Shown: positions 4,486-29,890 of the stretch, piece by piece
Position numbering within the stretch: position 1 is the stretch's first letter
How the letters are laid out: the number at the start of each line of letters is the position of its first letter
Origin: Desulfonatronospira thiodismutans ASO3-1
GTDB lineage: Bacteria > Desulfobacterota > Desulfovibrionia > Desulfovibrionales > Desulfonatronovibrionaceae
Length of the DNA: 64,000 bases
Reading direction: 5' to 3'
Assembly: GCF_000174435.1 (NCBI RefSeq)
Contig: NZ_ACJN02000002.1
Location: forward strand, 248,001-312,000
Program-made: the position numbers and the translations under genes
The notes under the pieces: model-generated
Database searches by the model: none
Seen by the model: only the letters and a program-made list of their open reading frames with translations
Told to the model about the DNA's origin: nothing

Positions 4486-4735
4486 TTGAGCTGTGAATTT
4501 TCCGAAGTTCAACTCAAAATACATGTCTTCTTGGAAAAATGTTCTCATTTTTTTCTTCGGATAGGCGACTGCCAGGTCCTGGACAAATGGCTAAAGGACA
4601 GAAAAGAACGTATGCTGACCCGTGGACGAGATCAAGAAATACTACAGAGTTGTCACGGCCGTAATCAAAACCGCTGAAATCCAGAAGGAACCTGAGAATG
4701 TTTATCTGGAAGCAAAAAAGAGGAGTGGGGCGTAG
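4486..4735 (+). pseudogene. Remnant of a restriction-modification enzyme C-terminus
   Basis: The translated stretch DCQVLDKWLKDRKERMLTR (about 4567-4623), followed in another frame by DEIKKYYRVVTAVIKTAEIQ (from 4625 to a stop at 4733), is the typical C-terminal tail of type ISP or related DNA methyltransferase/helicase restriction proteins (pattern LDKWLKDRK...). The rest of the gene is absent and a frameshift separates the two parts. It is a dead fragment. Confidence 0.5.
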
Positions 4736-4889
4736 CGTGGTGGTGTAACTTTTATTAAATCCCCAGATGGCCGCTCCAAGGGCTCCAGCGAAGTCCTGAT
4801 CAGGAGGGGTGAGGATATCTGAGACAATTATTTCCTGCAAAAGACGAATTATGCAAGGTTTGTGAGCCACGCCCCTGCAAAGAGCAAAA

Positions 4890-5022
4890 GTATCTGTTCA
4901 GCGCTTTGGATGTGGCATGGGGACTGGCTCTTCAGTCACACCTGAAGCGTGATTGTCCCAGGAAATGAGTTCTTTTGAGCGTAAAATGATGCTCAGGTGG
5001 GTCCCGAAGTGCCTGTTCCCCG
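4890..5022 (+). mobile_element. Degenerate MITE, second copy of the element at 14008-14158
   Basis: It starts GTATCTGTTCAGCGCTTT, the terminal inverted repeat of the 14-kb MITE with one change. It then follows that element (read on its minus strand) through GGCATGGGGACTGGCTCTTC and AAAATGATGCTCA to GTGCCTGTTCCCC. The distal terminal repeat is not recognisable, so this copy is eroded at one end. Confidence 0.7.
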
Positions 5023-5066
5023 GGCCGGTTTCTTAAACCCTTGCCATCTACAAGACCATCGTCTCA

Positions 5067-5579
5067 TTACCTGGGTGGTGCACAGATGCCTGGAAAAATC
5101 TCTCTCAATGTCTTCTGGTCCAGGACTTCATGCAGGGGGACATCCAGATCATGAATTGAGGGCGGTTCCTGGTCTTCAGCCCGGCCGGCCTGTTCAGGCT
5201 CTTCCCTGCTGTTCTGAGATTGGCTTGAAGGAGGTATAGCTTTGCCCCGTGCCGGGTCAGGCCTCATGTTCATGTTGTTCTTAATCCAGTTGTCTGTTTC
5301 ATCGTGGGTACCCAGAAACAGAAAAATGAACCAGTCCTTTTCCTTGACCGCAACCATCCTGTGACCGTCTACCAGCTGAAACTTGATGCAGTTTTTAATC
5401 CTGGCCTCACCGTCCCGGCTGAGCTTGATGCGCAACTCATGGTCCAGATGGTTTTTATCCGCCAGGCTGCTGATGATCTCCCGGGCCTGGCGGGCGGCTA
5501 TTGCGGATTTGTTCCCTTCGCTGTCCATCCTGTCCATTTTCTTGTAAAACTGCACCGGATCATGGATTATGGCGGCCAT
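5067..5579 (-). CDS. RelE-superfamily toxin-like protein with long C-terminal extension
   Basis: Protein of 170 residues. Residues 20-100 resemble RelE/ParE-fold mRNA interferases: helical IAARQAREIISSLAD, a basic strand ARIKNCIKFQLVDGHRMV and the end WFIFLFLGTHDETDNWI, close to the usual VGTHDxxDRW. The last 70 residues are charged and proline-rich and not typical of RelE. GGGAGG sits upstream of the start at 5579. There is no adjacent antitoxin, so it may be an orphan toxin, or act with the degraded restriction genes near it. Confidence 0.6.
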   Translation of the reverse strand: MAAIIHDPVQFYKKMDRMDSEGNKSAIAARQAREIISSLADKNHLDHELRIKLSRDGEARIKNCIKFQLVDGHRMVAVKEKDWFIFLFLGTHDETDNWIKNNMNMRPDPARGKAIPPSSQSQNSREEPEQAGRAEDQEPPSIHDLDVPLHEVLDQKTLREIFPGICAPPR

Positions 5580-5681
5580 GCAAGCCTCCCTGCCTGGACT
5601 TGGCAATAAGAATTATGCTTATCAAGCTAAGCCTTACAGCCCCAGTGCTGTAAGAATACGCGCAGAAAGTAATTTTTTGTG

Positions 5682-8431: not shown

Positions 8432-8450
8432 AAAGGCCTTTTATTCGTAA

Positions 8451-8519
8451 CCATTCAGGGGGGCCTCGGTGGTGATTACTGGCACCGGGCCGGTTCCGGC
8501 GTCCCACCCCCCTGAATGG
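8451..8519 (+). repeat. Dispersed palindromic element, copy B
   Basis: The outer arms CCATTCAGGGGGG (8451-8463) and CCCCCCTGAATGG (8507-8519) are perfect inverted repeats. The interior shares TCGGTGGTGATTACTGGCACC with copy A. It sits between two convergent genes and its hairpin could also serve as a bidirectional terminator. Confidence 0.8.
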
Positions 8520-8535
8520 GTACCATCAGTCTACT

Positions 8536-10569
8536 CTACAGTCTTGTCCTTTTAAATCTATTCATCAGATTTTTCCAGAAACCCTGGTCCCTTTTGCCGG
8601 CATTAATCCATTCCAGGTACTTGTCCCGTCCCTCAATGATTATAGTGTGGGCCTTACGCTTGGCCTTTACCCCCTGAGGCAGCAGCCGCATGAAACGCTC
8701 CACTTCATAGGTGTGCACTGTTTTGTCCGCATGGACAAAGATCTTATTGCCATGTTCTTCCTGGGTCAGGACCTTGGTCGCAAACAGTTCCTGCCACTCC
8801 ATCTTGTCAATATCATAGAGCTTATCCACCGGGACCTGCGGAAAGTAATCCGGAACAGACCTTTCAGCAAACCGGTAAAAATCGGCAAAGATTTTTCTGC
8901 TCAGGCTCAACTCATCCACCAGGAGATCTTCTTTGATATTATCTATGGGCTGATCCAGTTTTTCCAGGTAGCTGTGGGCAAAAAGCTTGAAGAAATCACA
9001 ATCCGTGTTCAATATCCGGTTCAGGGTTTCGCTGGCCTGGATATTTTTCTGATCGAACTTGACATCAAAATTGATCCTCTTGATCCTGGTATTGGCCCAT
9101 TCCGGGGGATTAAACCGGTTTGTGGTCATGATTATCTGGGGCACAGGATGTCCCGGGTTCCACCATACCTCCCAGTAATTCTTGAGCACTGTTTCAATGT
9201 TTGAGCCTGAGCCGATATTTACATCATCAAACATGAGCGGAAAAACCGTGCCGAACATCTTGGCGCTCATGATCCTGGTCTTGTTGAAATATTCCTGGGC
9301 AATGGGCTCCAGATGCCTGCCGGCCATCAATTTCAGGCAAAAGCGCAGGAAATTGGTCTTGCCGTTGAATGAGGGCCCGTACAGATACAGGTAGCTGGGA
9401 CCCCTGGAATACATGTCCACCTGTTTCTTCAGTTTCTTGAACTCATGAGCAAACGGAGCTGAGAGCACATACAAAAGCGCCTCGAACACATTGGCCTGAA
9501 TTCTTTTATGGTCTATGGATTCCCCAAAACCGTATGATTCCACATACTCCTCAATATATTCCAGACCCTGCCGGACTTCCTCCCTGCTGTGTACCGGCCT
9601 GGACAAGACACCCCGGTAGTCCCCCATGTGCAGGAAAACCTGCCGGCTGGATCTGTGCGTACCCATAAGGGGAACCCCGCAGCTTCTTTTGACGTAATCC
9701 GAAAAATCCCTGGCGCTTAACCTGAGCTCGGACTTGACAATACTTGGCTTCAAAGGCTGCAGTTTTTTCTCGATGCCTTCCTGGGTCTTTACATCTGAAG
9801 GGATTATCACTCTGATCTCCCCGCTGGCCGGCTGTTCCTCGTCCGGTTCCCCGGTATCCGGGTTTTCGGAGTGTTCATTATTATCAACAGTGCTCAATGC
9901 CTGCCGGGTCAGATCTGTAAATACACGTGAGGTTTCAGATTCCGCCAGGTCCTTTACTTCCCCCACATCCTGGGAAAGCCAGGTCCTGATGACCTTTTCC
10001 TCATCTTCATCTCTGTTTTCCGCCAGTTTGATCAGATCATCCAGAAACAGCCTGGAATTTTTCAGGTGCTCCTTGTAGTCCTGGACAAACTTTTCCAATA
10101 GTGGATCTGGGCTCTTTAAATCCCAGTATACCACATAGTTGTGCTGTTTTGTGGCTTTGGCAGCCGGCTCGCTGAAATTGGCGCTGCCTACTATCACCCT
10201 GTACATGTCCTCGTTTTTCAGGATGTAAAACTTGGAGTGTATGGTCTTGCCCCTGGGAAAAAAGACTGTCAGCTTCTGCTCTTTTACCAGGTGCATAAGT
10301 TTTTGGATCAGGCTGATCTGCTTGTTCTCCAGGTCCTTCTTGTAATGTTTGACCGAGATGTTCTCCCCCACCAGAAGCTGCATGTACTCGAATTGGAATT
10401 TTTCAAATATGGACAGCATCAGGGTAGGTGAAGCCACATAGGAGACGGCCCTGATTTCCTTGTACCCGGAAATCAAGCCTTCAAAATCCTTGGGCTTTTG
10501 CAGATACAAAGTCTGCGGCTGGGCACCCTGTCGGGGCAACTGGCCGGGCCGGGCTTGTTTTTTGGTCAT
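8536..10569 (-). CDS. Phospholipase D-like nuclease fused to P-loop ATPase, putative defence protein
   Basis: Protein of 677 residues. The N-terminal domain (about 20-175) has one HKD half-site, H111-x-K113 with GSANFS at 128-133, as in PLD-family nucleases that dimerise to form a site. An acidic linker follows (205-255). The C-terminal domain has Walker A GPSFNGKT (398-405), Walker B LMFDD (445-449), a sensor MTTNRF (481-486) and arginines at 495-498, resembling SF3/AAA+ ATPases. I do not recognise the combination as a named system; Mokosh type II also joins PLD to an NTPase, but with an SF1 helicase. The ribosome binding site is weak. It stands alone beside DUF4143 genes. Confidence 0.72.
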   Translation of the reverse strand: MTKKQARPGQLPRQGAQPQTLYLQKPKDFEGLISGYKEIRAVSYVASPTLMLSIFEKFQFEYMQLLVGENISVKHYKKDLENKQISLIQKLMHLVKEQKLTVFFPRGKTIHSKFYILKNEDMYRVIVGSANFSEPAAKATKQHNYVVYWDLKSPDPLLEKFVQDYKEHLKNSRLFLDDLIKLAENRDEDEEKVIRTWLSQDVGEVKDLAESETSRVFTDLTRQALSTVDNNEHSENPDTGEPDEEQPASGEIRVIIPSDVKTQEGIEKKLQPLKPSIVKSELRLSARDFSDYVKRSCGVPLMGTHRSSRQVFLHMGDYRGVLSRPVHSREEVRQGLEYIEEYVESYGFGESIDHKRIQANVFEALLYVLSAPFAHEFKKLKKQVDMYSRGPSYLYLYGPSFNGKTNFLRFCLKLMAGRHLEPIAQEYFNKTRIMSAKMFGTVFPLMFDDVNIGSGSNIETVLKNYWEVWWNPGHPVPQIIMTTNRFNPPEWANTRIKRINFDVKFDQKNIQASETLNRILNTDCDFFKLFAHSYLEKLDQPIDNIKEDLLVDELSLSRKIFADFYRFAERSVPDYFPQVPVDKLYDIDKMEWQELFATKVLTQEEHGNKIFVHADKTVHTYEVERFMRLLPQGVKAKRKAHTIIIEGRDKYLEWINAGKRDQGFWKNLMNRFKRTRL

Positions 10570-10793
10570 GGCCTGAGATGGGTCTATGGGTTACACGTTG
10601 CTGGAGGATCGTATACAACCTCCCGGGAAAATTCAAACGACCAGGCTCGTCCAAGAGTGAAACCGGATCCTCTTCCAGGGTGTTTCACCGGGGTGACTCA
10701 AGGCCTGCTTCAGGCCGGACGTGAGGTTTTTTTCTTTACGAAAAAAGTACCCTTAAACCGGAAGAGCCTCGTGCAAAGTCAAAGCAGGATGTA
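10570..10793. other. Intergenic leader/3' region
   Basis: It contains a short GTGAAAC/GTTTCAC hairpin around 10650-10680. From about 10738 it contains the beginning of a segment duplicated near 15730. No gene. Confidence 0.4.
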
Positions 10794-12062
10794 TTAATGG
10801 ACGAAACCAGAACCACCCCAGAGGCAGGATATGGGTACTGCATACAGATCCTTTCCAAAAGGAACCACGGAATCGCCGTCATAAAGCACCACTCCAGCTG
10901 TGAAACTTTTCTCTGCTGCTCTCTGGAGCTTTTGCAAACCATTAAAGTCGGAAGACGTAACTGTAGAGCCCGCCTTAACCTCAATCCCTGCCAGTTTACC
11001 TCCGGACTCCAGAACCATATCTACTTCATTATTATCCTTATCGCGGAAATGGCTGAAAGAAATATCATCTTCCTGCCAGCCGGCTTGTCGGCGCAGTTCC
11101 TGAAGGATAAAAGTTTCCAGGAGCTGTCCAAACAAGGCGCGATCCTGCCATAGAGACCCGGCATCCACACCAAGCAGAGCACATGCCAGGCCGGGATCTC
11201 CCAAATGCAGCTTGGGCGTCTTTATCAGACGACTCAGGCGGTTGCTGTGCCAGGGTGGGAGTTCCTCCAGCAGAAAAATCCTGGACAAAAGGGTCAGATA
11301 CTCCCGAATTGTCGGCCGGCTTACCTGAAACGGAGATGCCATATCAGATACGTTTATCAGTCTCGCCGTCTGGCCGGCAGCCATCTCCAGCAGGCGCGGC
11401 ATAACGTCCAGCCTGCTGATGCGGGTCAGATCAAGCACATCCCGCTGCACAAGGGTGTCTATGTAGTCCCGGTACCAGGCTGTTCTTCTGCGGGCTGTTG
11501 TCCGGGATAACGCGGCAGGGTATCCACCGGCAGTAATATGTTCGGCCAAAACCCTGCCCTGACGTCTGCCAAATACACCAATCCTGAACCCCCTCCCAAA
11601 CAATGCATTCAGGAAAGCAGCCGGCTTACCGGCAATCTCAGCCCGGGAAAGCGGGTGCAGTCGCAGAATGGCCATGCGCCCGGCCAAGGAATCAGCCAGC
11701 CGGGGAACCATAAGTACATGTGCCGACCCGGTCAGAATGAACCGCCCAGGCTTTCGCCGCTCGTCCACCACCGCTTTCAAAGAGGTGAACAATTCCGGCA
11801 CCCGCTGCACTTCGTCCAGGATTACCTGCTCGGGCAGATCAGCGACATACCCTACCGGATCGAACTGCGCCGCAGAGCGTTGCACGTCATCGTCAAAGCT
11901 CAAATATGTGAACCCCCGCGCATCACCCACCAGTCTGGCCAATGTTGTTTTGCCGCATTGGCGCGGACCATGAATCAGAACAACCGGCGTATCAGTCAAA
12001 GACTCCAGAACACGCGGCATAATATATCGAGGGTAAAGATTATCGGGCCTCATGCTTGCCAT
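10794..12062 (-). CDS. DUF4143-family AAA ATPase
   Basis: Complete protein of 422 residues. The AAA_14 domain has Walker A GPRQCGKT (32-39), Walker B VILDEVQRVPELF (about 80-92) and the FILTGSA sensor. The C-terminal DUF4143 domain ends in the nuclease-like DKDNNEVDMVLE...AGIEVKAGST. The family is widespread in mobile regions, with unproven function. Its last ~275 bp are nearly repeated at 15736-16014, just before an IS66. It is a distinct subfamily from the frameshifted gene at 3303. Confidence 0.85.
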   Translation of the reverse strand: MASMRPDNLYPRYIMPRVLESLTDTPVVLIHGPRQCGKTTLARLVGDARGFTYLSFDDDVQRSAAQFDPVGYVADLPEQVILDEVQRVPELFTSLKAVVDERRKPGRFILTGSAHVLMVPRLADSLAGRMAILRLHPLSRAEIAGKPAAFLNALFGRGFRIGVFGRRQGRVLAEHITAGGYPAALSRTTARRRTAWYRDYIDTLVQRDVLDLTRISRLDVMPRLLEMAAGQTARLINVSDMASPFQVSRPTIREYLTLLSRIFLLEELPPWHSNRLSRLIKTPKLHLGDPGLACALLGVDAGSLWQDRALFGQLLETFILQELRRQAGWQEDDISFSHFRDKDNNEVDMVLESGGKLAGIEVKAGSTVTSSDFNGLQKLQRAAEKSFTAGVVLYDGDSVVPFGKDLYAVPISCLWGGSGFVH

Positions 12063-13729: not shown

Positions 13730-14554
13730 TCAGCGATTAGCAAACCAGACAGCATAATCTTTTACTGGTTGATAGTTTGAAGATGTTCGGTCAATGACTT
13801 CCAGGTCACATAATGGAACTGCGTATTTTCGTCTCCCGGCACGGATCGAAACTATAATCCCGTATAGATTGTCCCAGCCTTCAAAGCCATGAACTTTTAC
13901 CTTGTCAACCTGCTGCAACAGTCCTTTTTCCTGAAATTCCGATACTACTGCTTCAAACGGCAGCTTTAAAACTTCTTCTAGATGTCTTTCCCAGGCATCA
14001 AACGCATGTATCTGTTTAGCGCTTTTAAGGAAAGCAGGGGACAGGCACTCCAGGACCCACTTGAGCATCATTTTGTGCTTAAAACATCTCATTTTTTGGG
14101 ACAAGTGGGTCCCGGAAGAGCCAGTCCCCATGCCACATGCAAAGCGCTAAACAGATACAAACGCATCAATATCATCCCCGCTTTTTGCTTTTTCCAGAAC
14201 ATTCAGGATGCGTTTTCCCTCTTCTCCCAAACCAGCCCAAGAATATTTATTGTTAAGATGAGATGATATGTTTTCACGATCTTCATTATTGTCTCTTGGA
14301 TCAGCCGGATCTATATCCTCTTGATATAGATACATCCTTTCCCAATCCCAGTTCATTGCTTCACATTGTTCAATAACTTCACTTGGCATATGTTTAAGTG
14401 TGTGGCTGTCCCATTCTATCAAAAACGTTTTTTGATTCTTATCAATCTCTACAATCCTGCCTTGCCAGCCTCCAATATCAATCTCCAGGTCAGGATCTTT
14501 GGTACCGGATTTAACTACAACAGAATCTCCTGCTTTCATGATAGATTTTCTCAT
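13730..14554 (-). pseudogene. Conserved hypothetical gene split by a MITE
   Basis: The upstream part (14167-14554) encodes KAGDSVVVK...DIGGWQGRIVEID...IEWDS.TLKHMP...MYLY and ends SWLGEEGKRIL-like. The downstream part (13730-13999) encodes AFDAWERHLEEVLKLPFEA through KYAVPLCDLEV to VKDYAVWFANR. Together they are one protein of roughly 220 residues, a family often labelled calcium-binding without proof. A 151-bp MITE sits between them and supplies a stop to the first half and a false start to the second. Confidence 0.82.
14008..14158. mobile_element. MITE with 18-bp terminal inverted repeats and 8-bp target duplication
   Basis: The terminal repeats GTATCTGTTTAGCGCTTT (14008-14025) and its exact complement (14141-14158) enclose about 115 bp without a gene. 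AAACGCAT is present on both sides (14000-14007 and 14159-14166), the target-site duplication. It interrupts a conserved gene. An eroded relative is at 4890-5022. The mobilising transposase is not identified; 8-bp duplications are usual for IS66, among others. Confidence 0.92.
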
Positions 14555-15527: not shown

Positions 15528-15735
15528 TTCTGATTTTATAGCACATCCGGCCTACGCCTGCAAAACATCCCTCACTTCCCCGGGGTCCCTGGACACCGCC
15601 CAGGACCACTCTCCGAAGCCGCCTTGTCCATTCACTCCCCGGACCCACTCGTCCAGGAACCTGCGCTTGGTCTGGTCCTTTTCCGTATCCCGGCCCTTGG
15701 TCTCCAGGATCAGGAAGCGTTCGTCATCACAGAAA
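15528..15735 (-). pseudogene. C-terminal fragment of a restriction helicase (Res-type)
   Basis: The minus-strand reading FLILETKGRDTEKDQTKRRF, then LDEWVR and GGFGEWSWAVSRDPGEV.DVLQA, is the tail of type III-like or SNF2-type restriction helicases. The last ~100 bp are duplicated at 13276-13378. It is directly followed by a DUF4143 fragment. Confidence 0.55.
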
Positions 15736-16014
15736 AGTACCCCTAAACCGAAAGAACCTCATTCAAAGTCAAAGCAGGATGTATCAATGGACGAAACCAG
15801 AACCACCCCAGAGACAGGATATGGGTACGGCATACAGATCCTTTCCAAAAGGAACCACGGAATCGCCGTCATAAAGCACCACTCCAGCTGTGAAACGTTT
15901 CTCTGCTGCTCTCTGGAGCTTTTGCAAACCATTAAAGTCGGAAGACTTAACTGTGGAGCCCGCCTTGACCTCAATCCCTGCCAGTTTACCTCCGGACTCC
16001 AGAACCATGTCTAC
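15736..16014 (-). pseudogene. C-terminal fragment of a DUF4143 ATPase (duplicate of 10741-11018)
   Basis: It encodes VDMVLESGGKLAGIEVKAGS, then TV.SSDFNGLQKLQRAAEK and the same end as the gene at 10794, with only a few substitutions. Homology stops at 16014, where the IS66 terminal repeat begins, so the rest was removed with or by the insertion. Confidence 0.85.
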
Positions 16015-16202
16015 TGTGTACTTTCGGCAGACGTGCGTAAGCAGAAAAAATTTCACGGCAGCTGGCGTAGGCTTTGCTTGGAGGGCCAGTTCAGGGGCTG
16101 GTCAATTTTCGGTTATCACAGCACAAGTTGAGACACCTCCTCCATGACTCAAGGTCCAGGAGGAGGGTCTGCTGATATTGCGCTGGCTTGGCGTGGAGGA
16201 GA

Positions 16203-20205: not shown

Positions 20206-23200
20206 TCATCTCGTTTCGACCCCCTTCCAGCTTATGCTTATTTCATCACTGTTTCCGTATACATCAAAAGTGGTGATGTGCTCAATTTTGAGGGTCTTAT
20301 CTTTGTTGTGTACAAAGACTAACGACTCTTGCAGGGTGGGTGATAGAAATGTGTTATCCAGGTCCTCATGGTCATTAAGGACACTATCAATATACATTTT
20401 GGGTGTTTGTCCAGTATCTCGCCTCTCAAACAATCCTAGATTACCTTTGCCGACATCTTTGAAATGGTACTGTGTTTTGTGTTCCTTGGACCTTAATGGA
20501 AAAGCCTCATTAAACCATTTTGAAGCCCAGAGACGATCCTCAAAAGACAAAATGTCCTTGATTTTGTTGATTCGACCTGCAATGGAGCCAGCATCATATT
20601 CGGCAAATAGTGAACGACTTCTCGCCGGTGTTCCAAAAATATAAGAGTAGTCTAAGGGGGTGTTTTGAAAGTCAATGCCCGCTAAATCGTCTTTTGTCTT
20701 TAAAAGTTCCGTTAGGTCGTACTGTTGATTGTGGGTGCTTACTTGGTTGTCTCTTATTTCAAAGCCTGGCTTTACAAACACCCCTCTGCCTGTTTTTTCA
20801 CCTTCGACATACCTGACATTATACTGAAGCAAAATGATGTTAGGATTGCTGACAATCTGTAATCGGTGCCGGTTCACCCTTCCTGCGGTCTGTATAATGG
20901 AGTGCATGGATGAAGGCTCGATTATTGCCCAATCAAAATCGTGATCCCGTCCCACTTCTTCAACCGGGGTGGCCACAACTATCAAAATCAAATTTTTCCG
21001 GGTCTCACTGTCTTTTCCAGATTTTAGCTCATCTTTAATAAAGCTCTCAATCCTCGCATTTGGATTGTTCTTGTCTTTACGATTCAAGATGTGGTCAAGA
21101 TAGGACTCTTTGTAGAACCTTCTGCTAAGAACCTCTCTGGCATGGTAGGTACACACCCTTACCTCGTATTCGCTGTTACCTGAAAAAGTATTTTTGATGT
21201 AGCTGGCTATTTCCATGCAGGCTTTGATGTTGGCCACCCTTACCAGACCGACGGATACCTTCTCATACTGGCTGTCGTTTATCGCAAAACCCTGATCGTT
21301 GTGCAGGTCCAACACTGAGTTTGCTATGGCTTCGTGCAGACTTGCCTTGTCCGGATTGAACTTTGCTATTTTAAATTTTTTGGTAGTTCCTGTTTTCGCC
21401 TGGGCGATCTGCTGGCAATAGCTCTGGTATGAATTATACACATTGCTGTCTGCACCCATATCTTCAGGCCCAACGGTATCACTGATCGTCACTATGGCCA
21501 TGGATGTGTCGCTAAATGCTGACTTTCTCATTCTCAGGCCTGTATTAAAGGCATCAGCAATCGCCTGAACCGATTCAGGCATAAGCGTAGCGCTGGATAT
21601 GACTATGTTTCTACCCAGCATGGCATGAACAGTTATCAGCCTGAGAACAGCCACAAATGCTTTCACATCGTATGAGTCGATTTCGTCTATGATAAGATCG
21701 CTTGAGGCTGCTCGAAGCAGGGCGACAGCGTGGTGAGCTTGCCTGTGCGGCTCCCCGGCAGCTATCAGATAGTCAATGGTTGAAACCAGCAGTGGCGCAC
21801 CAATTACATCCCTGGTGGAACCTTTCTTTTGCTTGCTTAAATCATTGAGCCAGGACGGGACGTTGGCCTCAAGAGAGGTTGCCGTAACTTCAACATCTTC
21901 TTCATAGTCTGTTTCGCTATCTTCTTTGTCTGATGCGGACACTCCTTCTGCGTCTTGATGTTCAGCTTCGTGCAGTTTCCGGATGGTAAGATCCCCGATT
22001 GTGCAGACACACTCGTCATTCTGGAGCCCAAGGTCCTTCTTGTATGCGCTATGAGTCTGCAAGGTTAAGCTTCGCAGATTCAATACTGATGAGATTCTGA
22101 CTGGCTCGCCTTCCCTTAAGGCCATTAGTGCTCGTACGTTCATAAAGGTTTTGCCGGCTCCGGTGGAAGCCACATTAAGCACAAGGGTCTGCGTATTCTT
22201 GTACTCTTTCAGGAAGTCCACGGCCTTATCCTGCCACGCAAATCTTGAATTAGTATCGCCGGGTAACAGCAGATTTTCGTAGCTGTAATACTCTAATGCA
22301 GGAAGCCCGTTGGCCTCGGGGTTGAAGTGCGCAACCAGTTCAGAAGCTCTTTTGGAGACGCCTTTCAGATGAAAGTCCAAAGACTGCTTCGGTTTTTTCG
22401 CCTCAATTTCTTGTTTTTGAGCCTCAATCTCTGCTTTTATCTGTCTGTGTTTAGAATCTGTGATTTTCTTTCGTCTTTTATCTTTTTTTGCTTGATCTGC
22501 TTGTTTTTCTAAACCCTTTTCCAATTTCTCCTTTTCGTCTTGACTGTATTTCTTTTTGGAATTGGCAATAAGCTCATTTTTTGCCACTTCTCCCTCGTCT
22601 TTGCTTGATATTTCATGGTCCGCCAGGATCAGGGCGGCCCTGGATATGAAGCTAAGCCCGTTCAAGTAATCAGGGCTTGATTTAATATTTTCCAGTCTGT
22701 TTTGCTTGCTCTCTATCTTTTTAAGTATGGCGGCAATCTGGGCAGTTTTGATCTTGTTCATGTCCAGCTTCATTTTTTCGGTTATTCTCTTATCTTCATT
22801 GACAAAGGTAGAATAATTAAATTGATGAGGAATTGCCTGGGGGGTATTGCCCATATCTTTTATTGTGGGGCCAAACATTTTATGGTGGGTAATAATGTTG
22901 TACTTTATGGCGTCCTGAACAGACTCGTTCCCTTGCCACAGATTGATTACACCATTTTGCAAGCTGTTAAGGCAACCCTTTAACTCTTCCCAAGCATTGA
23001 TAAATGTCTTATCATCCCATGAACCCTTGTTTGAAAGATAGTCAAAGATCCAGGCGGATATAAGTTCGTGCCTTATTGGGTCTTTGATGATAGAGTTGTC
23101 TAGGATTTTTCCCTGGAAATATTCGGTCATCTTCCCAAAATCATGTGACATGCCGCTGGCTGCAGCAAGGAGAGCTGCATGCCTAAAAAACATAGGCCAT

Positions 23201-23493
23201 CTCTGGGTTTGGGTGCTTGTCCCGATAGCATATCTGCCATACCTGTCATATCCTTTCTTGCTTCCTATTAAAGCGTAAAGCTCTTGGTAATTGTAACCTT
23301 TATTTCTGTATATTGCGACAGACGTAAATTTGGATACCTTGCTTTTCAGCCCCCGGCACAACTCTTTCAAGGCTTCCATGGTTATCTGAGTGGTCCAAAC
23401 ATTATCGCCTATTCTTGTGGCATACCTGTCAATTAAGGAGAAAGACCTGTTTCTTGCTTTACCCTGGCAATGGGAAACGATGGTGACAAACAT
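20206..23493 (-). CDS. cas3: Type I-F Cas2-Cas3 fusion (nuclease-helicase and adaptation subunit)
   Basis: Protein of 1095 residues. Residues 1-95 are the I-F Cas2-like domain (FVTIVSHCQGKAR...GDNVWTTQITMEAL). The HD nuclease follows (MSHDFGK, H117-D118; RHELISAWIF; HH in ITHHKM). The SF2 helicase has Walker A STGAGKT (443-449), DEID (603-606), SSATL (about 635) and motif VI QTAGRVNRHR. It degrades target DNA after Csy-complex recruitment and pairs with Cas1 for spacer uptake. A lysine/glutamate-rich coiled-coil insertion (about 315-372) is longer than I expect. The ATG overlaps the regulator's TGA (ATGA) with AAGGAGG five bases upstream. Confidence 0.95.
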   Translation of the reverse strand: MFVTIVSHCQGKARNRSFSLIDRYATRIGDNVWTTQITMEALKELCRGLKSKVSKFTSVAIYRNKGYNYQELYALIGSKKGYDRYGRYAIGTSTQTQRWPMFFRHAALLAAASGMSHDFGKMTEYFQGKILDNSIIKDPIRHELISAWIFDYLSNKGSWDDKTFINAWEELKGCLNSLQNGVINLWQGNESVQDAIKYNIITHHKMFGPTIKDMGNTPQAIPHQFNYSTFVNEDKRITEKMKLDMNKIKTAQIAAILKKIESKQNRLENIKSSPDYLNGLSFISRAALILADHEISSKDEGEVAKNELIANSKKKYSQDEKEKLEKGLEKQADQAKKDKRRKKITDSKHRQIKAEIEAQKQEIEAKKPKQSLDFHLKGVSKRASELVAHFNPEANGLPALEYYSYENLLLPGDTNSRFAWQDKAVDFLKEYKNTQTLVLNVASTGAGKTFMNVRALMALREGEPVRISSVLNLRSLTLQTHSAYKKDLGLQNDECVCTIGDLTIRKLHEAEHQDAEGVSASDKEDSETDYEEDVEVTATSLEANVPSWLNDLSKQKKGSTRDVIGAPLLVSTIDYLIAAGEPHRQAHHAVALLRAASSDLIIDEIDSYDVKAFVAVLRLITVHAMLGRNIVISSATLMPESVQAIADAFNTGLRMRKSAFSDTSMAIVTISDTVGPEDMGADSNVYNSYQSYCQQIAQAKTGTTKKFKIAKFNPDKASLHEAIANSVLDLHNDQGFAINDSQYEKVSVGLVRVANIKACMEIASYIKNTFSGNSEYEVRVCTYHAREVLSRRFYKESYLDHILNRKDKNNPNARIESFIKDELKSGKDSETRKNLILIVVATPVEEVGRDHDFDWAIIEPSSMHSIIQTAGRVNRHRLQIVSNPNIILLQYNVRYVEGEKTGRGVFVKPGFEIRDNQVSTHNQQYDLTELLKTKDDLAGIDFQNTPLDYSYIFGTPARSRSLFAEYDAGSIAGRINKIKDILSFEDRLWASKWFNEAFPLRSKEHKTQYHFKDVGKGNLGLFERRDTGQTPKMYIDSVLNDHEDLDNTFLSPTLQESLVFVHNKDKTLKIEHITTFDVYGNSDEISISWKGVETR

Positions 23494-24341
23494 CAGACCT
23501 CCTTACTATAAGTTATCAAGGGCCAGACAACATGGCCCATATTCTTCTTGTCGTCCTGATAATATCTCTTGAAGTAAAACAGCTCATTTTTGGGGACTGT
23601 GATCCTTCCATCCTTGACCCCCAGCTCATTGGAAAGCACCTGCCGTTGTTCGTTGTTTAGCTCCTCATTAAAAATGACCTCCACCTTGGTCTTTTCAGCT
23701 TTGACATCCTTAAACTCAAAGTCTTTGGGAACTGAGGTAGGGGAAGGTCTAGCATCCATTATCCTCGACATCACATAATGCTTTTGTATGTACCCTGGCG
23801 AGTTTATATCCTGTGCCAGTAGCCGCCATACTTGTCCGTTATGCTGCAGACCGTTGCAGACCACCTTCCGCCACCTGGGCAGATCGTTTTTTTTGAGCCC
23901 GACATAAAGTATCTCAATGACTATATGCTGGCCACGCATATCTTTTGGATTGATGTACGCCTGCCTGGCCTTGAAAACATACTCCAGTATTATGTCCAGG
24001 CCGGACAATGGCCGGTTCCTGGGTGGGTACTGAACGAAGAAAACCGATGCCTCTTCATGCGTCAGGCCGGTATCCTCCGGGCCAGCGTGTTTTTCAAACA
24101 GCTCAATCATTGTTTCAGCACTGGCCTCTTTTGGTGTCACCGCCTCTTCTTTCTTAAAGACACCGCTTTTTCGGTATTGATACAAGACGTGAGGCCATTC
24201 GTTGATGGCTTCTTGCAGAACCTTGCTTGCGGTTGCACTGGTAACTTCAAACCTTTCAATCAGATCAGAGTTCCTGGCTCTGCCAAGCCAGCAAGCCCTT
24301 CTTAATACATATAGCTTCTTCCTCTCATATTCTTTTGTCAT
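23493..24341 (-). CDS. WYL-domain transcriptional regulator (BrxR/CapW-like) of the CRISPR locus
   Basis: Protein of 282 residues. N-terminal winged helix (LRRACWLGRARNSDLIERFEVTSATASKVLQE in outline), then a central WYL-type domain (LKKNDLPRWRKVVCNGLQHN, QVWRLLAQDINSPGYIQKHYVMSRI) and a C-terminal WCX-like region. BrxR/CapW relatives repress BREX and CBASS loci and may sense ligands. Start 24341 (MTKEYERKK) is preferred over 24407. It is the first gene of an operon with cas2-3 and diverges from csy1, so it is placed to control both. Confidence 0.8.
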   Translation of the reverse strand: MTKEYERKKLYVLRRACWLGRARNSDLIERFEVTSATASKVLQEAINEWPHVLYQYRKSGVFKKEEAVTPKEASAETMIELFEKHAGPEDTGLTHEEASVFFVQYPPRNRPLSGLDIILEYVFKARQAYINPKDMRGQHIVIEILYVGLKKNDLPRWRKVVCNGLQHNGQVWRLLAQDINSPGYIQKHYVMSRIMDARPSPTSVPKDFEFKDVKAEKTKVEVIFNEELNNEQRQVLSNELGVKDGRITVPKNELFYFKRYYQDDKKNMGHVVWPLITYSKEV

Positions 24342-24374
24342 GTCCAATTCCCTTGTTTTTGTTGCTTGAATAAA

Positions 24375-24408
24375 CTTGATAATAGATATTGAATATATAT
24401 TTGTCAAG
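24375..24408. promoter_or_regulatory. Inverted repeat in the regulator-csy1 divergent region
   Basis: CTTGATAA (24375-24382) and TTGTCAAG (24401-24408) pair at seven of eight positions with 18 AT-rich bases between. It lies upstream of both divergent operons, just before the regulator's start, a reasonable operator for the WYL protein. This is inference from position. Confidence 0.45.
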
Positions 24409-24497
24409 ATAAAACCAAGTATATATATAATTAATTTATATTTTATATTTTTTCTCCCTAAAAAATTTGAATTAAGAAAAAAATGTGGAGTTTAATA

Positions 24498-24526
24498 TTG
24501 ACAAAACAAATAAACAGCAGTAGAGT
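24498..24526 (+). promoter_or_regulatory. Sigma-70-type promoter of the csy operon
   Basis: TTGACA at 24498-24503, a 17-base spacer, and TAGAGT at 24521-24526 (perfect -35, 4/6 -10). Transcription would begin near 24533, which rules out the longer Csy1 frame beginning at 24483. Confidence 0.7.
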
Positions 24527-24558
24527 GTTCTGCAGATTGGCTAAAAAAGGAGGGAAAC

Positions 24559-24600
24559 ATGATTCCAAAAAAGATAGGGGGGCAAATATGGGGGCGATAA
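24559..24600 (+). CDS. 13-codon upstream ORF overlapping the csy1 start
   Basis: ATG at 24559 follows a strong AAGGAGGG. It encodes MIPKKIGGQIWGR and stops with TAA at 24598-24600, ten bases after the csy1 ATG (24588). The strong ribosome binding site of the transcript belongs to this frame, so csy1 may be translated by termination-reinitiation. A leader-peptide role is inference. Confidence 0.5.
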   Translation: MIPKKIGGQIWGR

Positions 24601-26222
24601 CCTGGGAGGATTTTCTAAGTAAATTTGAAGATTTATGCTTCGTCGTTAGTGACGAACCAGACATGGATGCGCTGATCGAAGACAAGAAAACAAACGACTT
24701 GCTCAAGACGAATGCAGAGGCGGAAGAACTGGATCTGTTGACAGAGGTTCTGCAGAAACATCCAGATGTTCATTTTTATCGTAAAATGGTCGGAGCTACC
24801 AAGAAAGACTTGAGAGGGCTTCTTGATGATTGCGACATAGAAGGATCGGAGAAAGCGTTAAACAGTATTTTATCACTTTTGAAGTTGAGAGTTGATAAGA
24901 CAGACCCGGAAATACTCAAGCAGGATGAAATCATAAAATTATTATGGGAGCATCCGGAAATCCAAAATTCCTGTAAGATAAAAGGGTGCGGTAAAAAGGA
25001 CTTTCTGAAGCAATATGAGAATAATACCTTAACCCCCCGAACTGCGCTAGAGGATGCCAAAAAAGCCATTGCTTCCACTACGGGAGCAACAAATTTTGAC
25101 CTTAAGGCGCATGTCAACAAGTTCGCCGTCCACTTTCAAAGTAAGCTCGTTCATTCTCAGGCCAAAAATGGCGGGGTTCTGCTTGGGAAAAAGGCATCTC
25201 GAAGCACCCCATATTTATGTGCGGCAAGCTTGATGCACAATGGGCACAGACCAGACCTGGATCAAACCAGTAATGACAGTTCGGGAATCTACCAAGCCTT
25301 GCTGAAGAAATATGCTGATTACAAGTCCGGGCAAACAGAAAGCGGCAATGTTGACCCTGCTGTGCAGGGCTTTGTGGATGTTGTTGAGCAAGATGACGTG
25401 GCTTTCATTGAAAAAAATATGGACTCACTAGATCCGCAACTTAAGCAGGTGATCGTCCCTCACCCCGACAATGACCAGTATATTGCCTTTGTTCCTCTTG
25501 TGTCCCCCGGTATAAATAAGATTGTCCTGGATGCCTATGAAGAGAATAGGAAGCAGGGCGAACAGAGATTTAATGCCGGCAGACTTTATAATTTGCTGGG
25601 ATACGGCGGGTCAAATGCACAGAATGTCTGCCTCAAAAAAAACATTCGATATATAAACTCGCCCATGCTGGCAAACACCCCTCAGGCTGATAGACAAGAC
25701 AAGAGGGCCTGGCGGTTCTTGCTTGGAGGCTCTGACTCGTTTCATTTTCGAGTGAGGTGGGGTGATGTAGAGAATTATGGAAAGTGGCTCTCTGCCAATA
25801 GAAAGGAAGGGATGCACCAGGGAGAAGGAGATGCTGGTGCAAGCAGAAAGCTCGCAAAAGAAACCGGCGTGCTCGCGCAAAAAGCAGAAGCGTCCGTATT
25901 AAGGCCGATTGTTGAGGAGTGTGTGTATGACATGAGGGTGCTGTCGGAAAATATCAACAGTTTGATAACTGAAGAAGGTCCTAGAAGGATCCTGGAGGAG
26001 AAAGAAATGACTCAAGATGGACAATGGGAAAAGAAGTTTCTGGACAGCAGAAACGACCTTGAACTCTTCGTTATTACAGGGATGAAAGGCAACGAGACTG
26101 AAGAATTGCTGGTTGATAGCATGATGAACACGATAGATAAACACGAAGACATATCTTTTAATGTAACAGATAAGAGCAGGACCAGTCAGGTAATAAGGGG
26201 ACTGATTAAGGAGATGATATGA
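24588..26222 (+). CDS. csy1: Csy1 (Cas8f), large subunit of the type I-F effector
   Basis: Protein of 544 residues. Recognisable family marks are KLVHSQAKNGG, YLCAASL near residue 210, and GYGGSNAQNV near 338-346, the equivalent of the GGxxPQN motif of Csy1. In known I-F complexes it recognises the PAM and holds the crRNA 5' handle with Csy2. It is about 110 residues longer than the usual 430; the extra part is a charged helical N-terminus. The start at 24588 has AGGGGGG before it. It ends in an ATGA overlap with csy2. Confidence 0.85.
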   Translation: MGAITWEDFLSKFEDLCFVVSDEPDMDALIEDKKTNDLLKTNAEAEELDLLTEVLQKHPDVHFYRKMVGATKKDLRGLLDDCDIEGSEKALNSILSLLKLRVDKTDPEILKQDEIIKLLWEHPEIQNSCKIKGCGKKDFLKQYENNTLTPRTALEDAKKAIASTTGATNFDLKAHVNKFAVHFQSKLVHSQAKNGGVLLGKKASRSTPYLCAASLMHNGHRPDLDQTSNDSSGIYQALLKKYADYKSGQTESGNVDPAVQGFVDVVEQDDVAFIEKNMDSLDPQLKQVIVPHPDNDQYIAFVPLVSPGINKIVLDAYEENRKQGEQRFNAGRLYNLLGYGGSNAQNVCLKKNIRYINSPMLANTPQADRQDKRAWRFLLGGSDSFHFRVRWGDVENYGKWLSANRKEGMHQGEGDAGASRKLAKETGVLAQKAEASVLRPIVEECVYDMRVLSENINSLITEEGPRRILEEKEMTQDGQWEKKFLDSRNDLELFVITGMKGNETEELLVDSMMNTIDKHEDISFNVTDKSRTSQVIRGLIKEMI

Positions 26223-27055
26223 GTATATATCTGATTTTTAATAATTTAATGGTGAGACGGGCAAACATGATGCAATCTCCATATCTTTATGCACCTGTCC
26301 CTGTTTTCCCCTCTGTGTGTACCGGACACAAACTCGGGTGCATGCTGGATTGTGAAGTTGATGGTGTAGGAGTCGTACACCACAGGGCGGAACCCTTGAT
26401 CGAACAGATGGCTCAGATGAATCAGGGAAGTAATAGGGTGAATATAGTAACATCCCCTATTCAGTTTCGCGGGACGCCGAGTGGGAAACAGGTAAACACG
26501 AAAGATCCTATTGGGCTGCCAATGCAACCAACTATGACCGCCCACCTGGAAATATCTTTGATTTTTAGAGTTAATGGCAGGGTCCCAACTGTTGAAGCGG
26601 CAAGAGAGGCCATGCAAGGACTGCGGATTGCCGGCGGCTCCTTAAACTATATTTCATCGAGGCGGGTGAAGCTCAAGGATGATTTGATCGGTGCGCTGGC
26701 GGAGGTGAGTAATGGTTTTTGGATTAGCGATGCAATGCACTTAGTCCAGCAAAGACTGGATGAAGGCTTTGATCCTGTGAGTGCAATTTTTCAAAAAGCC
26801 GACAAGGGATGGTATGTGCCGGCTAACCTGGGTTATTGTGCAGTAACGGATTTTAAGCAAAGGCAAGGAGGTAGGACACTGGTTTGGGAGGATGGACGAG
26901 TTGATGAGCCAGAAATCGCCTTGGCAGATAACATGATAGGACTGGTTAGATATGACCCCCTTTATGGTGTGAAGCAGGAGCTGAATAGTGGGGGCACGGT
27001 TGGTATGTGGCATTTTGATTTTACAGACGACACTTTTTTTGTCGTTAAACAATAA
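26219..27055 (+). CDS. csy2: Csy2 (Cas5f)
   Basis: Protein of 278 residues. Begins IYLIFNNLMVRRANMMQSPY, matching the Csy2 N-terminus (strand, then R.xNAN..SP), followed by VPVFPSVCTGHKLG in place of the usual GFPAxTAFLGFVHAL. A RAMP-fold protein that caps the crRNA 5' end together with Csy1. Somewhat shorter than typical (about 310-330). Coupled to csy1 by a four-base overlap. Confidence 0.85.
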   Translation: MSIYLIFNNLMVRRANMMQSPYLYAPVPVFPSVCTGHKLGCMLDCEVDGVGVVHHRAEPLIEQMAQMNQGSNRVNIVTSPIQFRGTPSGKQVNTKDPIGLPMQPTMTAHLEISLIFRVNGRVPTVEAAREAMQGLRIAGGSLNYISSRRVKLKDDLIGALAEVSNGFWISDAMHLVQQRLDEGFDPVSAIFQKADKGWYVPANLGYCAVTDFKQRQGGRTLVWEDGRVDEPEIALADNMIGLVRYDPLYGVKQELNSGGTVGMWHFDFTDDTFFVVKQ

Positions 27056-27073
27056 AATAAAAGGAGTAGAATT

Positions 27074-28138
27074 ATGAGCATTGGAAATTTACCGAAGTTG
27101 TTGTCTTTTCAAAGAGGTGTAGCGGTTTCTGACGGACTAATGTATAACTATACATCAAAACCTCAAAACGGCTATAGCAAGGTGCGCGTGGTAAGGCATG
27201 GCATCCGGGGAACCCAGAATGTCAGCGACGCAAGTAAAGAGAAACTTTACCAGGTGCAGGTGACAGAGTCTGCCAAGACTGAAGCAAACGCTGAAGGCTT
27301 GGTTATCCGTTTTTCGTTTGGCCTCCTCCCTTTAAAAAACCTCTTGTTTTCCTCTTCAGAGAAATCGTTTAGCGATCATTGCCAGGCTTTTGCGGAGCGG
27401 TTTGGTGGTAGCGAGGAACTGATGGAAATATCTTGTAGATACGCAAGAAATGTCTTGAACGGACGTTGGTTTTATCGAAATTCCGAGCTTGAAAGCGGCA
27501 GGCAAATAACCGTGAAGTTTCTCCCTCCTGGTTCAGAAACAAAAGATCTCCCTGAAGCTGATGGCGTAACCGTCCAGTCAGCGACATCCCTGGGTTTTCG
27601 CAATGACTATACTGCAGATGAAAAGAAGTTGGGAGCAGAGATATGTAAATGTCTTAAGGGAGAAAGCAAGACCAGATTCCATGTCGAGGGAGTCATTAAA
27701 TTTGGGATGAAGGGCGTATTTGAGGTGTTCCCTTCACAGAACTATGTCTCAAGCAAGCCTAAGGGGTTTGCCCGTCCGCTTTATAAGGTCGGCGTAGTCG
27801 ATAGTCGTGAACTGTCTGATATTTTGAAAGATTCAGACCCTAGTTCTTTTCGCGCCGACATGATCTCGATGGGACATGCAGCCCTGAGAGATCAGAAAAT
27901 AGGGAACGCCCTGAGAGTTATTGATACCTGGTATGAGAGGGGCGATGACATGACCCCGATTGCTGTTGAACCGAATGGCGCGTCGTTGAAAGACAACCAC
28001 TATTATCGCAAGAAAAATGGCTCTGCCTTTGTTTTAATGAAGAAGATTGACGAGATGCAGCCTGGGAATGGTGAGCTGAACAAGGACGCTATGTTTTTGC
28101 TTGCGACCATGATCCGCGGTGGAGTTTTTTCCGGATAA
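27074..28138 (+). CDS. csy3: Csy3 (Cas7f), backbone subunit
   Basis: Protein of 354 residues. Family marks are LPKLLSFQRGVAVSDGLMY, HGIRGTQN, VQVTESAKT..A.GLVIRFS and ARNVLNGRWFYRN. Several copies coat the crRNA spacer in I-F complexes. AAGGAG precedes the start by eight bases. It follows csy2 by 18 bases. Confidence 0.92.
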   Translation: MSIGNLPKLLSFQRGVAVSDGLMYNYTSKPQNGYSKVRVVRHGIRGTQNVSDASKEKLYQVQVTESAKTEANAEGLVIRFSFGLLPLKNLLFSSSEKSFSDHCQAFAERFGGSEELMEISCRYARNVLNGRWFYRNSELESGRQITVKFLPPGSETKDLPEADGVTVQSATSLGFRNDYTADEKKLGAEICKCLKGESKTRFHVEGVIKFGMKGVFEVFPSQNYVSSKPKGFARPLYKVGVVDSRELSDILKDSDPSSFRADMISMGHAALRDQKIGNALRVIDTWYERGDDMTPIAVEPNGASLKDNHYYRKKNGSAFVLMKKIDEMQPGNGELNKDAMFLLATMIRGGVFSG

Positions 28139-28145
28139 CTTTAAC

Positions 28146-28173
28146 GTGTACCACCGTATAGGTGGTCAAGGAG
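28146..28173 (+). promoter_or_regulatory. CRISPR-repeat-like stem-loop in the cas6f leader
   Basis: A 28-base stretch matching the array repeat at 21 of 28 positions, in the same orientation. The stem CCACC/GGTGG is fully kept. The loop is GTATA, the loop of well-known type I-F repeats, instead of the array's GCATA. It starts 7 bases after the csy3 stop. Its 3' flank merges with the AAGGAG ribosome binding site (28168-28173) of cas6f. Cas6f normally cuts at the 3' base of such a stem and stays bound, so it could mask or trim its own translation start. Confidence 0.85.
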
Positions 28174-28180
28174 AGTATAA

Positions 28181-28774
28181 ATGCAACCTCTTTATTATAT
28201 GGATATTGAAATCAAAAGACCGAAAGTGGAAGCGGACAGTCCTATATATACCAGGATCGAAAAGATATTTTCGAGGATTCACCTTAGAATCAAGGAAGGA
28301 TATAAATTTGCTGTGGCTTTCCCTAGTATGTTGAGCCTGCCCGGGCTTGGTGATTCTATAAGGGTTTTCGGTGAAACTCGGGAGGATCTTTGGGGCTTGG
28401 AAGATTATCTGGGAGGTGCGCCGAATTTTGAGTACGAATATATAGCAACCAATAGTGATGTAGCCCCAGTGCCAGATGAGAGGGTGGTTGGGTATGAGTA
28501 TTATGCTCGCTTCCGTATTCCGTCCAAGAAGAACTCCAAGCGGTTCAGCGAGAACCTTGAAGCACACCAGAAACAACAACAGTTACGACAAAAACGCTTG
28601 AAGATTGCTGCCTCTCTGCCCTTTGTAAATGTAACCAGCAAAAGCACTGCCCGCTCGTTCAAGCTGTTTGTGGAGAAGGGGGCCTGCACAAATGGACTGC
28701 ACGGGAGTCCGGATGGTTATGGTTTGTCCAGACAGGGGAACATCATATCCCTGCCTGTGTTTTATGACGAATAG
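28181..28774 (+). CDS. cas6f: Cas6f (Csy4), crRNA-processing endoribonuclease
   Basis: Protein of 197 residues. The N-terminus YYMDIEIKRP and RIHLRI align with Csy4, placing the histidine of RIHLRI (residue 34) at the catalytic His29 position. The C-terminal LPFVNVTSKSTARSFKLFVE, then KG and GYGLSRQG match the Csy4 signature with the catalytic serine in SKST. It cuts pre-crRNA in each repeat. The message carries a repeat-like hairpin at its ribosome binding site. Confidence 0.95.
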   Translation: MQPLYYMDIEIKRPKVEADSPIYTRIEKIFSRIHLRIKEGYKFAVAFPSMLSLPGLGDSIRVFGETREDLWGLEDYLGGAPNFEYEYIATNSDVAPVPDERVVGYEYYARFRIPSKKNSKRFSENLEAHQKQQQLRQKRLKIAASLPFVNVTSKSTARSFKLFVEKGACTNGLHGSPDGYGLSRQGNIISLPVFYDE

Positions 28775-28836
28775 AGTTTGTGTTTTGGCCTGGCTTGAGA
28801 GGTCAGGTCTTGATTTTTTCTTGGAAGGAGTGTTTT

Positions 28837-29778
28837 GTGCAGAATAAGCAGTCAAATAGAAGACCAATGGCGGTCATGCTCTCCAAGAGAGCTAATGTGT
28901 TTTATTTTGAGCATGTCAGGATTATGCAGAAAAAAGACCGGGTGGTTTATTTGACTGAAACAGGTGGTGGGGATGTTTTGCAGTTTGTCAATATTCCTGA
29001 CAAAAACACCGCCTTTGTTTTGATGGGTAAAGGAAGCTCTATAACTGATGCTGCGGCAAGAAAGCTGGCGGAATCCAATGTTTTGATAGGTTTTGCCGGT
29101 AGTGGCGGCTCACCTTTATTCGGGGCTATGGATTTTACTTTCCTGTTGCCCCAGGACGAATATAGGCCTACTGAATACGCTCAGAACTGGATGAAGATGT
29201 GGTTGGATGAAGAAAAGCGCTTATCGTTGGCCAAAAAATTTTTGGAAAAACGAGTAGAATGGGGAGAAAAGCACTGGCCGTCTTTAAGTTTGAACTGGCC
29301 CCGTGAAGCTTCTGATATTTTGCGTGAATCTATACATTCAGCAGAGCAAGCTAATGATTTGTTGCTGTCTGAAGCTAAGTTTGCCAAAAGTCTGTATGCG
29401 TGCCTGGCTTCCCGTTACAAAATTGATGAGTTTACCCGGGACCCTGGGCAGAAAAAAGGGGAAACCAAAGCACAGTTAATCAATTCGTACCTGGACCATG
29501 GGAATTACATAGCTTATGGGTATGCTGCGGTTACTCTTCATGGCTTGGGAATTCCTTTCTTTTTGCCTGTTTTGCACGGCAAGACAAGGCGCGGGGCCTT
29601 AGTTTTTGATGTGGCTGATTTATTTAAGGACTGGGTAGTGATGCCGGTTGCCTTTGATTGTGGCAGTCGGAAGGTTAAAAATTCTGAGTTTAGAGCTTTA
29701 ATCATTCAGCAGGCACATGAGCGTTCTTTGCTTGATATGTTGTTTCAGTTCCTGTCAGACTTGGCCAAAAAAGATTGA
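28837..29778 (+). CDS. cas1: Cas1, type I-F integrase
   Basis: Protein of 313 residues. The I-F Cas1 start LSKRANVFYFEHVRIMQKKD is followed by the catalytic Glu in SEAKFAKSLYACLASRY, the His of LHGLGIPFFLPVLHGKTRRG and the Asp of VFDVADLFKDWV. The GTG start at 28837 has GGAAGGAG six bases upstream, preferable to the GTG at 28780. Here cas1 is last in the operon next to the leader, not first beside cas2-3 as usual. Confidence 0.95.
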   Translation: MQNKQSNRRPMAVMLSKRANVFYFEHVRIMQKKDRVVYLTETGGGDVLQFVNIPDKNTAFVLMGKGSSITDAAARKLAESNVLIGFAGSGGSPLFGAMDFTFLLPQDEYRPTEYAQNWMKMWLDEEKRLSLAKKFLEKRVEWGEKHWPSLSLNWPREASDILRESIHSAEQANDLLLSEAKFAKSLYACLASRYKIDEFTRDPGQKKGETKAQLINSYLDHGNYIAYGYAAVTLHGLGIPFFLPVLHGKTRRGALVFDVADLFKDWVVMPVAFDCGSRKVKNSEFRALIIQQAHERSLLDMLFQFLSDLAKKD

Positions 29779-29890
29779 TAAATATCAATGACTTGCAATA
29801 ATCTTGATTTGCAAATTGAAAATCAATGTATTTGAGAGTTTTTGAAGTGTATCTGCCTGTGACAATTAGGTTTTGTAACAATTTTATGGC
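29779..29890 (+). promoter_or_regulatory. CRISPR leader with IHF-like sites
   Basis: AT-rich stretch of 112 bp between cas1 and the first repeat. TATCAATGACTTG (29783-29795) fits the IHF consensus WATCAANNNNTTR exactly, and AATCAATGTATTT (29821-29833) misses it by one base. Repeat orientation (CTAAGAAA at the 3' end) confirms that transcription starts from this side. Confidence 0.65.

Follow-up and report, generated by a model that had tools for sequence, protein, structure and literature searches.

Positions 8536 to 10569 of the window, i.e., the whole 64,000-nt stretch of Desulfonatronospira DNA analyzed here, hold a gene whose product appears to join a PLD nuclease to an ATPase in one chain. 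The locus raises the questions of whether this protein belongs to any described system and what an ATPase might contribute to such a nuclease. A first-pass annotation had placed the gene in a defense island next to DUF4143 ATPases and had left it without a named system.

A PLD nuclease, an acidic linker, and a predicted SF3-like ATPase in one chain

The gene lies on the minus strand as one open reading frame of 677 codons with zero internal stops; the plus strand of the same interval is interrupted by stops. A chance reading frame is excluded because homologs with 66–68% identity are found in Desulfonatronovibrio and Desulfohalobiaceae genomes. The single 677-residue protein described in the first-pass annotation is therefore borne out as an intact frame, and the residue number given there for the active-site histidine, H111, agrees with the minus-strand protein. 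To judge conservation, we aligned 24 members of the family, i.e., the query, four further bacterial members (L001, L003, L007, and L034), 13 haloarchaeal ones, and six other plasmid-borne bacterial ones from Athalassotoga, Arcobacter, Ligilactobacillus (two), Lactobacillus, and Limosilactobacillus; the fragmentary L002 was excluded from these counts. Eleven residues are invariant in all 24 (H111, G128, S129, N131, P372, G403, K404, P444, N484, R495, and W592), and K113 is shared by 23 of them with an arginine in L031.

The PLD nuclease domain spans residues 20–175 (10045–10512; this and all following features of the gene are on the minus strand). A Pfam search of the query protein matched RE_NgoFVII over residues 79–168 above the cut-off (1.5e-6), and Foldseek comparison of the PLD region, taken from a low-confidence model, ranked R.NgoAVII best (4rct, 2.8e-6) and SauUSI next (7clg, 1.2e-4), followed by Tdp1 structures at 0.006 and above. 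Consistent with the single HKD half-site that had been claimed, HxK occurs once in the protein (H111-S-K113, 10231–10239) and is followed by a GSxN motif (G128-S-A-N131, 10177–10188). The residue five positions past the lysine is K118 and not the aspartate of the classic HKD motif.

The acidic linker expected from the first reading was also found. Residues 186–260 (9790–10014) carry a net charge of -14 over 75 residues, compared to near-neutral PLD (+7) and ATPase (-1) parts. Linkers are acidic in 17/17 members of the clade formed by the query group and the haloarchaea (-0.14 to -0.29 per residue), with values of -0.07 to +0.04 per residue among the seven members of the other bacterial clade. 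Acidity is general in haloarchaeal proteins, but the four Desulfovibrionales members do not show it in their PLD and ATPase parts.

A C-terminal ATPase is common to all relatives and comprises residues of about 330–600 in the query (8770–9582). Pfam reported nothing significant in the C-terminal half of the protein, where an AAA match stayed below threshold (0.098), and the assignment of a P-loop ATPase therefore rests on motif conservation in the 24 members and on profile–profile comparison with SF3 helicases. The motifs comprise a Walker A sequence GPSFNGKT (residues 398–405; 9355–9378) that includes G403 and K404, a Walker B sequence FPLMFDD (443–449; 9223–9243) in which P444 is invariant and the acidic pair is missing or shifted in L016, L026, and L028, a motif C/sensor 1 TTN (482–484; 9118–9126) with N484, and after it R495 (9085–9087), a candidate arginine finger. 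When the family ATPase was compared by hhalign to four P-loop sets, the SF3 families DUF5906 (probability 94.9 over 149 columns) and D5 (91.6 over 144 columns) scored above the controls IstB (83.1 over 89 columns) and FtsH-type AAA (51.7 over 28 columns, Walker A only), though all sets were of limited size and SF3 exceeds IstB by a moderate margin. Both SF3 alignments run from Walker A to TTN and include the arginine behind it, at an identity of only 11–15%, and we did not identify the SF3 motif B' in the family. We therefore regard SF3 helicases as the nearest relatives of this domain by profile comparison, in line with the SF3-like label it had received at the outset. Two AlphaFold2 models built from 4-sequence alignments reached a mean pLDDT of 50 and 52, with about 28 in the ATPase core.

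The last residue of Walker A separates the family by host: it is serine or threonine in 11/11 bacterial members, including the canonical GKT of the query, compared to glycine or aspartate (GKG or GKD) in 13/13 haloarchaeal ones. Some D5-type SF3 sequences that we fetched for comparison also have GKG, and such a Walker A motif therefore need not mean a loss of activity.

Full-length homology to the Argonaute partner AgaP

Searches of plasmid sequences by tblastn revealed that haloarchaeal AgaP proteins match the query over its whole length with 24–27% identity and E-values down to 2e-58. AgaP has been described as the PLD partner of a haloarchaeal long-A Argonaute, which is encoded by an adjacent, co-transcribed gene and with which it forms the APAP system (mLife 2024, PMC11442185). 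The locus of the experimentally tested NpAgaP from Natrinema pellirubrum DSM 15624 (L017) aligns to residues 27–655 of the query (25.4% identity, E 8e-56); its gene is split into three "hypothetical" CDS in the public record, though the frame is open throughout. According to the APAP report, NpAgaP is toxic on its own, this toxicity requires H105, K107, G157, S158, and N160 and is suppressed by Argonaute, and plasmid restriction requires AgaP (PMC11442185). The five residues align with H111, K113, G128, S129, and N131 of the query. Judged from these alignments, homology to AgaP is near certain, and the query protein is a member of the AgaP family but not an APAP system. The initial statement that no named system applies thus stands in one respect, i.e., the Argonaute partner that defines APAP is missing (see below), but not in the other, since the protein has a full-length homolog in a named system.

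The same report presents a split HxK(x)49GSxN motif as unique to AgaP (PMC11442185). This split form is absent from the query, where 14 residues separate HxK from GSxN instead of the 49 of NpAgaP. Spacing is 13–16 in 18 of the 24 aligned members and 44–49 in the remaining six, which all belong to one haloarchaeal subclade that includes NpAgaP. The published motif is therefore, from the aligned sequences, an acidic insert of one subclade and not a feature of the family. This insert of ca. 30 residues lies at the active site between HxK and GSxN in the AgaP proteins of L012, L017, L023, L024, L025, and L032, and it could act as a DNA-mimic plug.

Argonaute is an exchangeable partner

No Piwi gene was detected in the window by tblastn with haloarchaeal Argonautes, and none exceeds the Pfam cut-off in the seven genomes of the query's phylum that carry a member or remnant of the family; in the query's own genome, the best hit has 11.7 bits compared to a cut-off of 28.9. 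More broadly, tblastn with haloarchaeal Argonaute queries, which could miss distant ones, found no Argonaute beside any of 12 bacterial members (the query, L001, L002, L003, L019 which holds L007, L013, L014, L029, L030, L031, L033, and L034), with short or one-sided flanks in the case of L001, L002, and L019. Among haloarchaea, we fetched 13 of the 16 near-full-length plasmid loci. A Piwi gene is located next to the PLD-ATPase gene in seven of them (L010, L012, L015, L017, L025, L027, and L028; one small gene intervenes in L012), and the fetched flanks of the other six contain none (L011, L016, L023, L024, L026, and L032).

A tree of the family joins the query clade and the haloarchaeal clade with full support (100/100), apart from the other bacterial members, with a warning by the program about long branches. 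On this tree, the presence of Argonaute requires five changes, at least four of which are imposed by branches with good support, and in two sister pairs (L011/L015 and L026/L028) one member has Argonaute and the other lacks it. We conclude from this pattern of gene neighborhoods that Argonaute is an exchangeable partner of AgaP-type proteins.

Three of the haloarchaeal loci without Piwi (L023, L024, and L032) encode a 375-aa protein divergently from agaP (4529–5656, minus strand). In its first part, a segment of ca. 80 residues matches haloarchaeal Argonautes in their N-terminal region (E 7e-9 to 2e-7), while the rest resembles, by eye, a 3'–5' exonuclease of the DEDD type (DnaQ/PolB-type; Pfam DNA_pol_B_exo1 at 0.0035, below the cut-off). 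We had considered these proteins as an Argonaute N-lobe but dropped this idea given the short match and the exonuclease-like remainder. They may replace Argonaute as partners of AgaP at such loci.

Our literature searches found neither a description of the AgaP ATPase or of Argonaute-free members beyond PMC11442185, in the main text of which the word "ATPase" occurs zero times, nor experiments on Argonaute-free members. The "Agap" discussed in PMC12342005 is a different, HEPN-type protein.

A patchy distribution on chromosomes and plasmids

Six of 199 related genomes contain a match, a count that includes the query's own genome and one with a fragment (G047). The latter is an apparently decayed copy of which only an N-terminal part is left (L035, 3598–3942, minus strand). 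In a sample of the phylum, 2 of 395 genomes match, i.e., the query's own and G566. Plasmids yielded 32 matching records among 72,556 by tblastn, and the 20 of these with a query coverage of 80% or more are 16 haloarchaeal ones, one from Athalassotoga, and three from Arcobacter. Lactobacillaceae plasmids were added when an Arcobacter member served as query.

The first reading had named a strong match to a phage replication protein among the findings that would overturn it. We found zero matches among 50,697 phage records, no relatives on viral contigs in seven scans, and nothing convincing among PHROGs (best 0.061), and these results do not support such a protein.

Comparison with known nuclease systems

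In searches of the query against defense-system models and protein families (PADLOC and NCBIfam), all matches were weak and confined to the PLD region. This holds for DrmC of DISARM (1.8e-4) and for ZacB (9.3e-4), which we take to be a protein of the Azaca system; they share only the PLD region with the query, no full-length model was matched, and we saw none of the partner genes. We thus rejected the named PADLOC systems as assignments. A literature search on ZacA/ZacB returned nothing relevant.

Apart from AgaP, two restriction systems come closest in design. The type IV ATP-dependent restriction endonuclease SauUSI also combines a PLD nuclease, an acidic linker, and an ATPase in one chain, but its published architecture pairs an SF2 motor with an SRA domain for target recognition (PMC7913695), whereas the ATPase of the query is SF3-like and Pfam matched neither an SF2 nor a target-recognition domain. 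The R and N(H) proteins of CglI/NgoAVII similarly employ a PLD nuclease and are reported to require NTP hydrolysis for cleavage (PMC4267653), and R.NgoAVII is the best structural match of the PLD region (see above). Unlike the query, however, they are two separate proteins with a DEAD-family helicase and a B3 recognition domain (PMC4267653). DUF5906- and D5-type SF3 helicases have Walker A, Walker B, and the TTN motif C in common with the query, as well as the arginine behind TTN, but we found no primase or origin-binding part in the query, whose ATPase is instead fused to a nuclease.

An accessory region with CRISPR-Cas and other candidate defense genes

The query gene opens an accessory region. 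The window and a contig from the genus-mate G006 share 89.8% identity as far as base 8446, immediately beyond the end of the preceding gene; the other 978 bases of this contig have zero match in the window, placing the left edge of the region at 8447–8535. This genus-mate, listed as 99% complete, has no copy of the gene. On the same strand as the query gene, a DUF4143 ATPase gene (10794–12062, PADLOC PDC-S01) lies upstream at a distance of 224 bp. The region further contains a HepT/nucleotidyltransferase pair, of which the nucleotidyltransferase is the PADLOC candidate PDC-S09, genes at 16.2–19.5 kb that presumably encode an IS66-type transposase, and a type I-F CRISPR-Cas locus with a 41-copy repeat array that starts about 10 kb from the query gene (20206–32300, PADLOC models).

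These neighbors agree with the defense island of the first-pass annotation as far as the query locus is concerned, but the picture does not extend to all relatives. Their genes stand alone, with an AbiEii-type nucleotidyltransferase beside that of L001, and a transposase-like ORF beside that of L034. Those of L003 and L019 are surrounded by housekeeping-looking genes and not by a defense island, which we count against a role in defense. Similarly, the DUF4143 ATPase is indeed adjacent to the query gene but has no counterpart in the ORF lists of L001, L002, L003, and L019, and we rejected it as a conserved partner.

A possible ATP-gated nuclease against foreign DNA

On balance, we consider it probable that the query is a stand-alone, ATP-gated, Argonaute-free nuclease of the AgaP family that restricts foreign DNA, probably of plasmids or phages. 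A defense role is likely because it is supported by a proven relative, the accessory position of the gene, and its patchy distribution. By analogy, we think that the protein would work in general like SauUSI and CglI/NgoAVII, though with an SF3-like ATPase. NpAgaP is toxic alone, and the solo form must therefore be restrained otherwise. A linker that is acidic or blocks the nuclease has been suggested as the restraint in SauUSI and BfiI (PMC7913695), and we propose that the linker of the query may hold its nuclease back likewise. Two PLD domains would probably pair into one metal-independent nuclease center as in BfiI and SauUSI, with the C-terminal ATPase probably forming a ring or dimer on DNA. 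This ATPase would engage invading or replicating DNA and supply the gating that Argonaute gives in haloarchaeal APAP; the acidic linker would shield the nuclease by DNA mimicry, and nucleotide hydrolysis would free it, with degradation of plasmid or phage DNA as the outcome.

It is unlikely, though worth considering, that the gene instead serves competition or copy-number control of mobile elements, with its product cleaving competing replicons or cooperating with Rep/Par proteins on behalf of the plasmid or island that carries it. The 20 plasmid records with near-full-length members speak for this idea, as do an Arcobacter locus (L014) where ParA/ParB and replication initiator genes adjoin the PLD-ATPase gene, two Ligilactobacillus plasmids (L029 and L033) with RepA genes near it, and an Athalassotoga locus (L013) with a replication initiator about 8 kb off. 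However, of the 19 plasmid loci for which annotation was read (L010–L017 and L023–L033), only four have Rep/Par genes, the query resides on a 1.17-Mb contig, the L003 and L019 copies have housekeeping-looking surroundings, and such a role would overlap with defense rather than exclude it. We find it distinctly improbable that the protein is an abortive-infection toxin restrained by a neighbor, e.g., by the upstream DUF4143 ATPase in the way that Argonaute restrains the otherwise toxic NpAgaP (PMC11442185): the spacing and shared strand of the two genes would fit, but the four relatives without a DUF4143 neighbor argue against it, and APAP is reported to act without noticeable abortive infection (PMC11442185).

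Less probable still is a Tdp1-like DNA-repair nuclease with its own motor. Tdp1 combines two HKD half-sites in one chain, while the query has a single one, its best matches are the NgoFVII/NgoAVII restriction nucleases, and its scattered occurrence among relatives does not favor this explanation, which draws on a weak Pfam match to Tyr-DNA_phospho (0.0013, below the cut-off), the lower-ranking Tdp1 structures in Foldseek, and the annotation of some plasmid members as tyrosyl-DNA phosphodiesterase.

Returning to restriction of foreign DNA by an ATP-gated nuclease, we tentatively raise the possibility, which we hold with less than even confidence, that PLD-SF3 proteins are the core of a widespread restriction nuclease that acts alone in bacteria. 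Argonautes would have joined later as an exchangeable targeting module, and with the loss of the Walker A serine/threonine in haloarchaea, control may have passed to Argonaute or, at three loci, to the OB-exonuclease-like protein.

In its original description, AgaP is an accessory PLD protein of Argonaute, distinguished by an unusual split motif. The evidence from the family instead points to a two-enzyme protein composed of a nuclease and an SF3-like ATPase, and none of the bacterial loci that we examined has an Argonaute with it. Two questions thereby become testable, namely how a nuclease with toxicity of its own is kept in check and whether members that act independently of Argonaute use ATP-gated DNA degradation to restrict plasmids or phages. 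Haloarchaeal AgaP proteins were reportedly not obtained in soluble form from E. coli (PMC11442185), and non-haloarchaeal members may be easier to purify.

Further observations on the window and related loci

Within the type I-F locus, Cas8f gave a weak match (1.4e-11), and an unassigned 304-aa ORF is located between cas3 and cas8 (23493–24407). L011, L014, L026, and L034 contain metallophosphoesterase genes no farther than about 8 kb from the PLD-ATPase gene, which may be chance; we discounted them as partners given that this type of gene is too common.

The window also contains several repeats. A direct repeat of 283 bp with 95% identity (10743–11025 and 15733–16015) corresponds to the 3' end of the DUF4143 gene and a second, partial copy of it. 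Another repeat of ca. 150 bp (14007–14158) has dozens of copies in G006 with up to 99% identity as well as reverse matches of ca. 70%, and is probably a palindromic interspersed element. A short dispersed repeat is present at 1098–1130, 8459–8491, and 51555–51621, with the second of these copies beside the query gene, where the accessory region begins.
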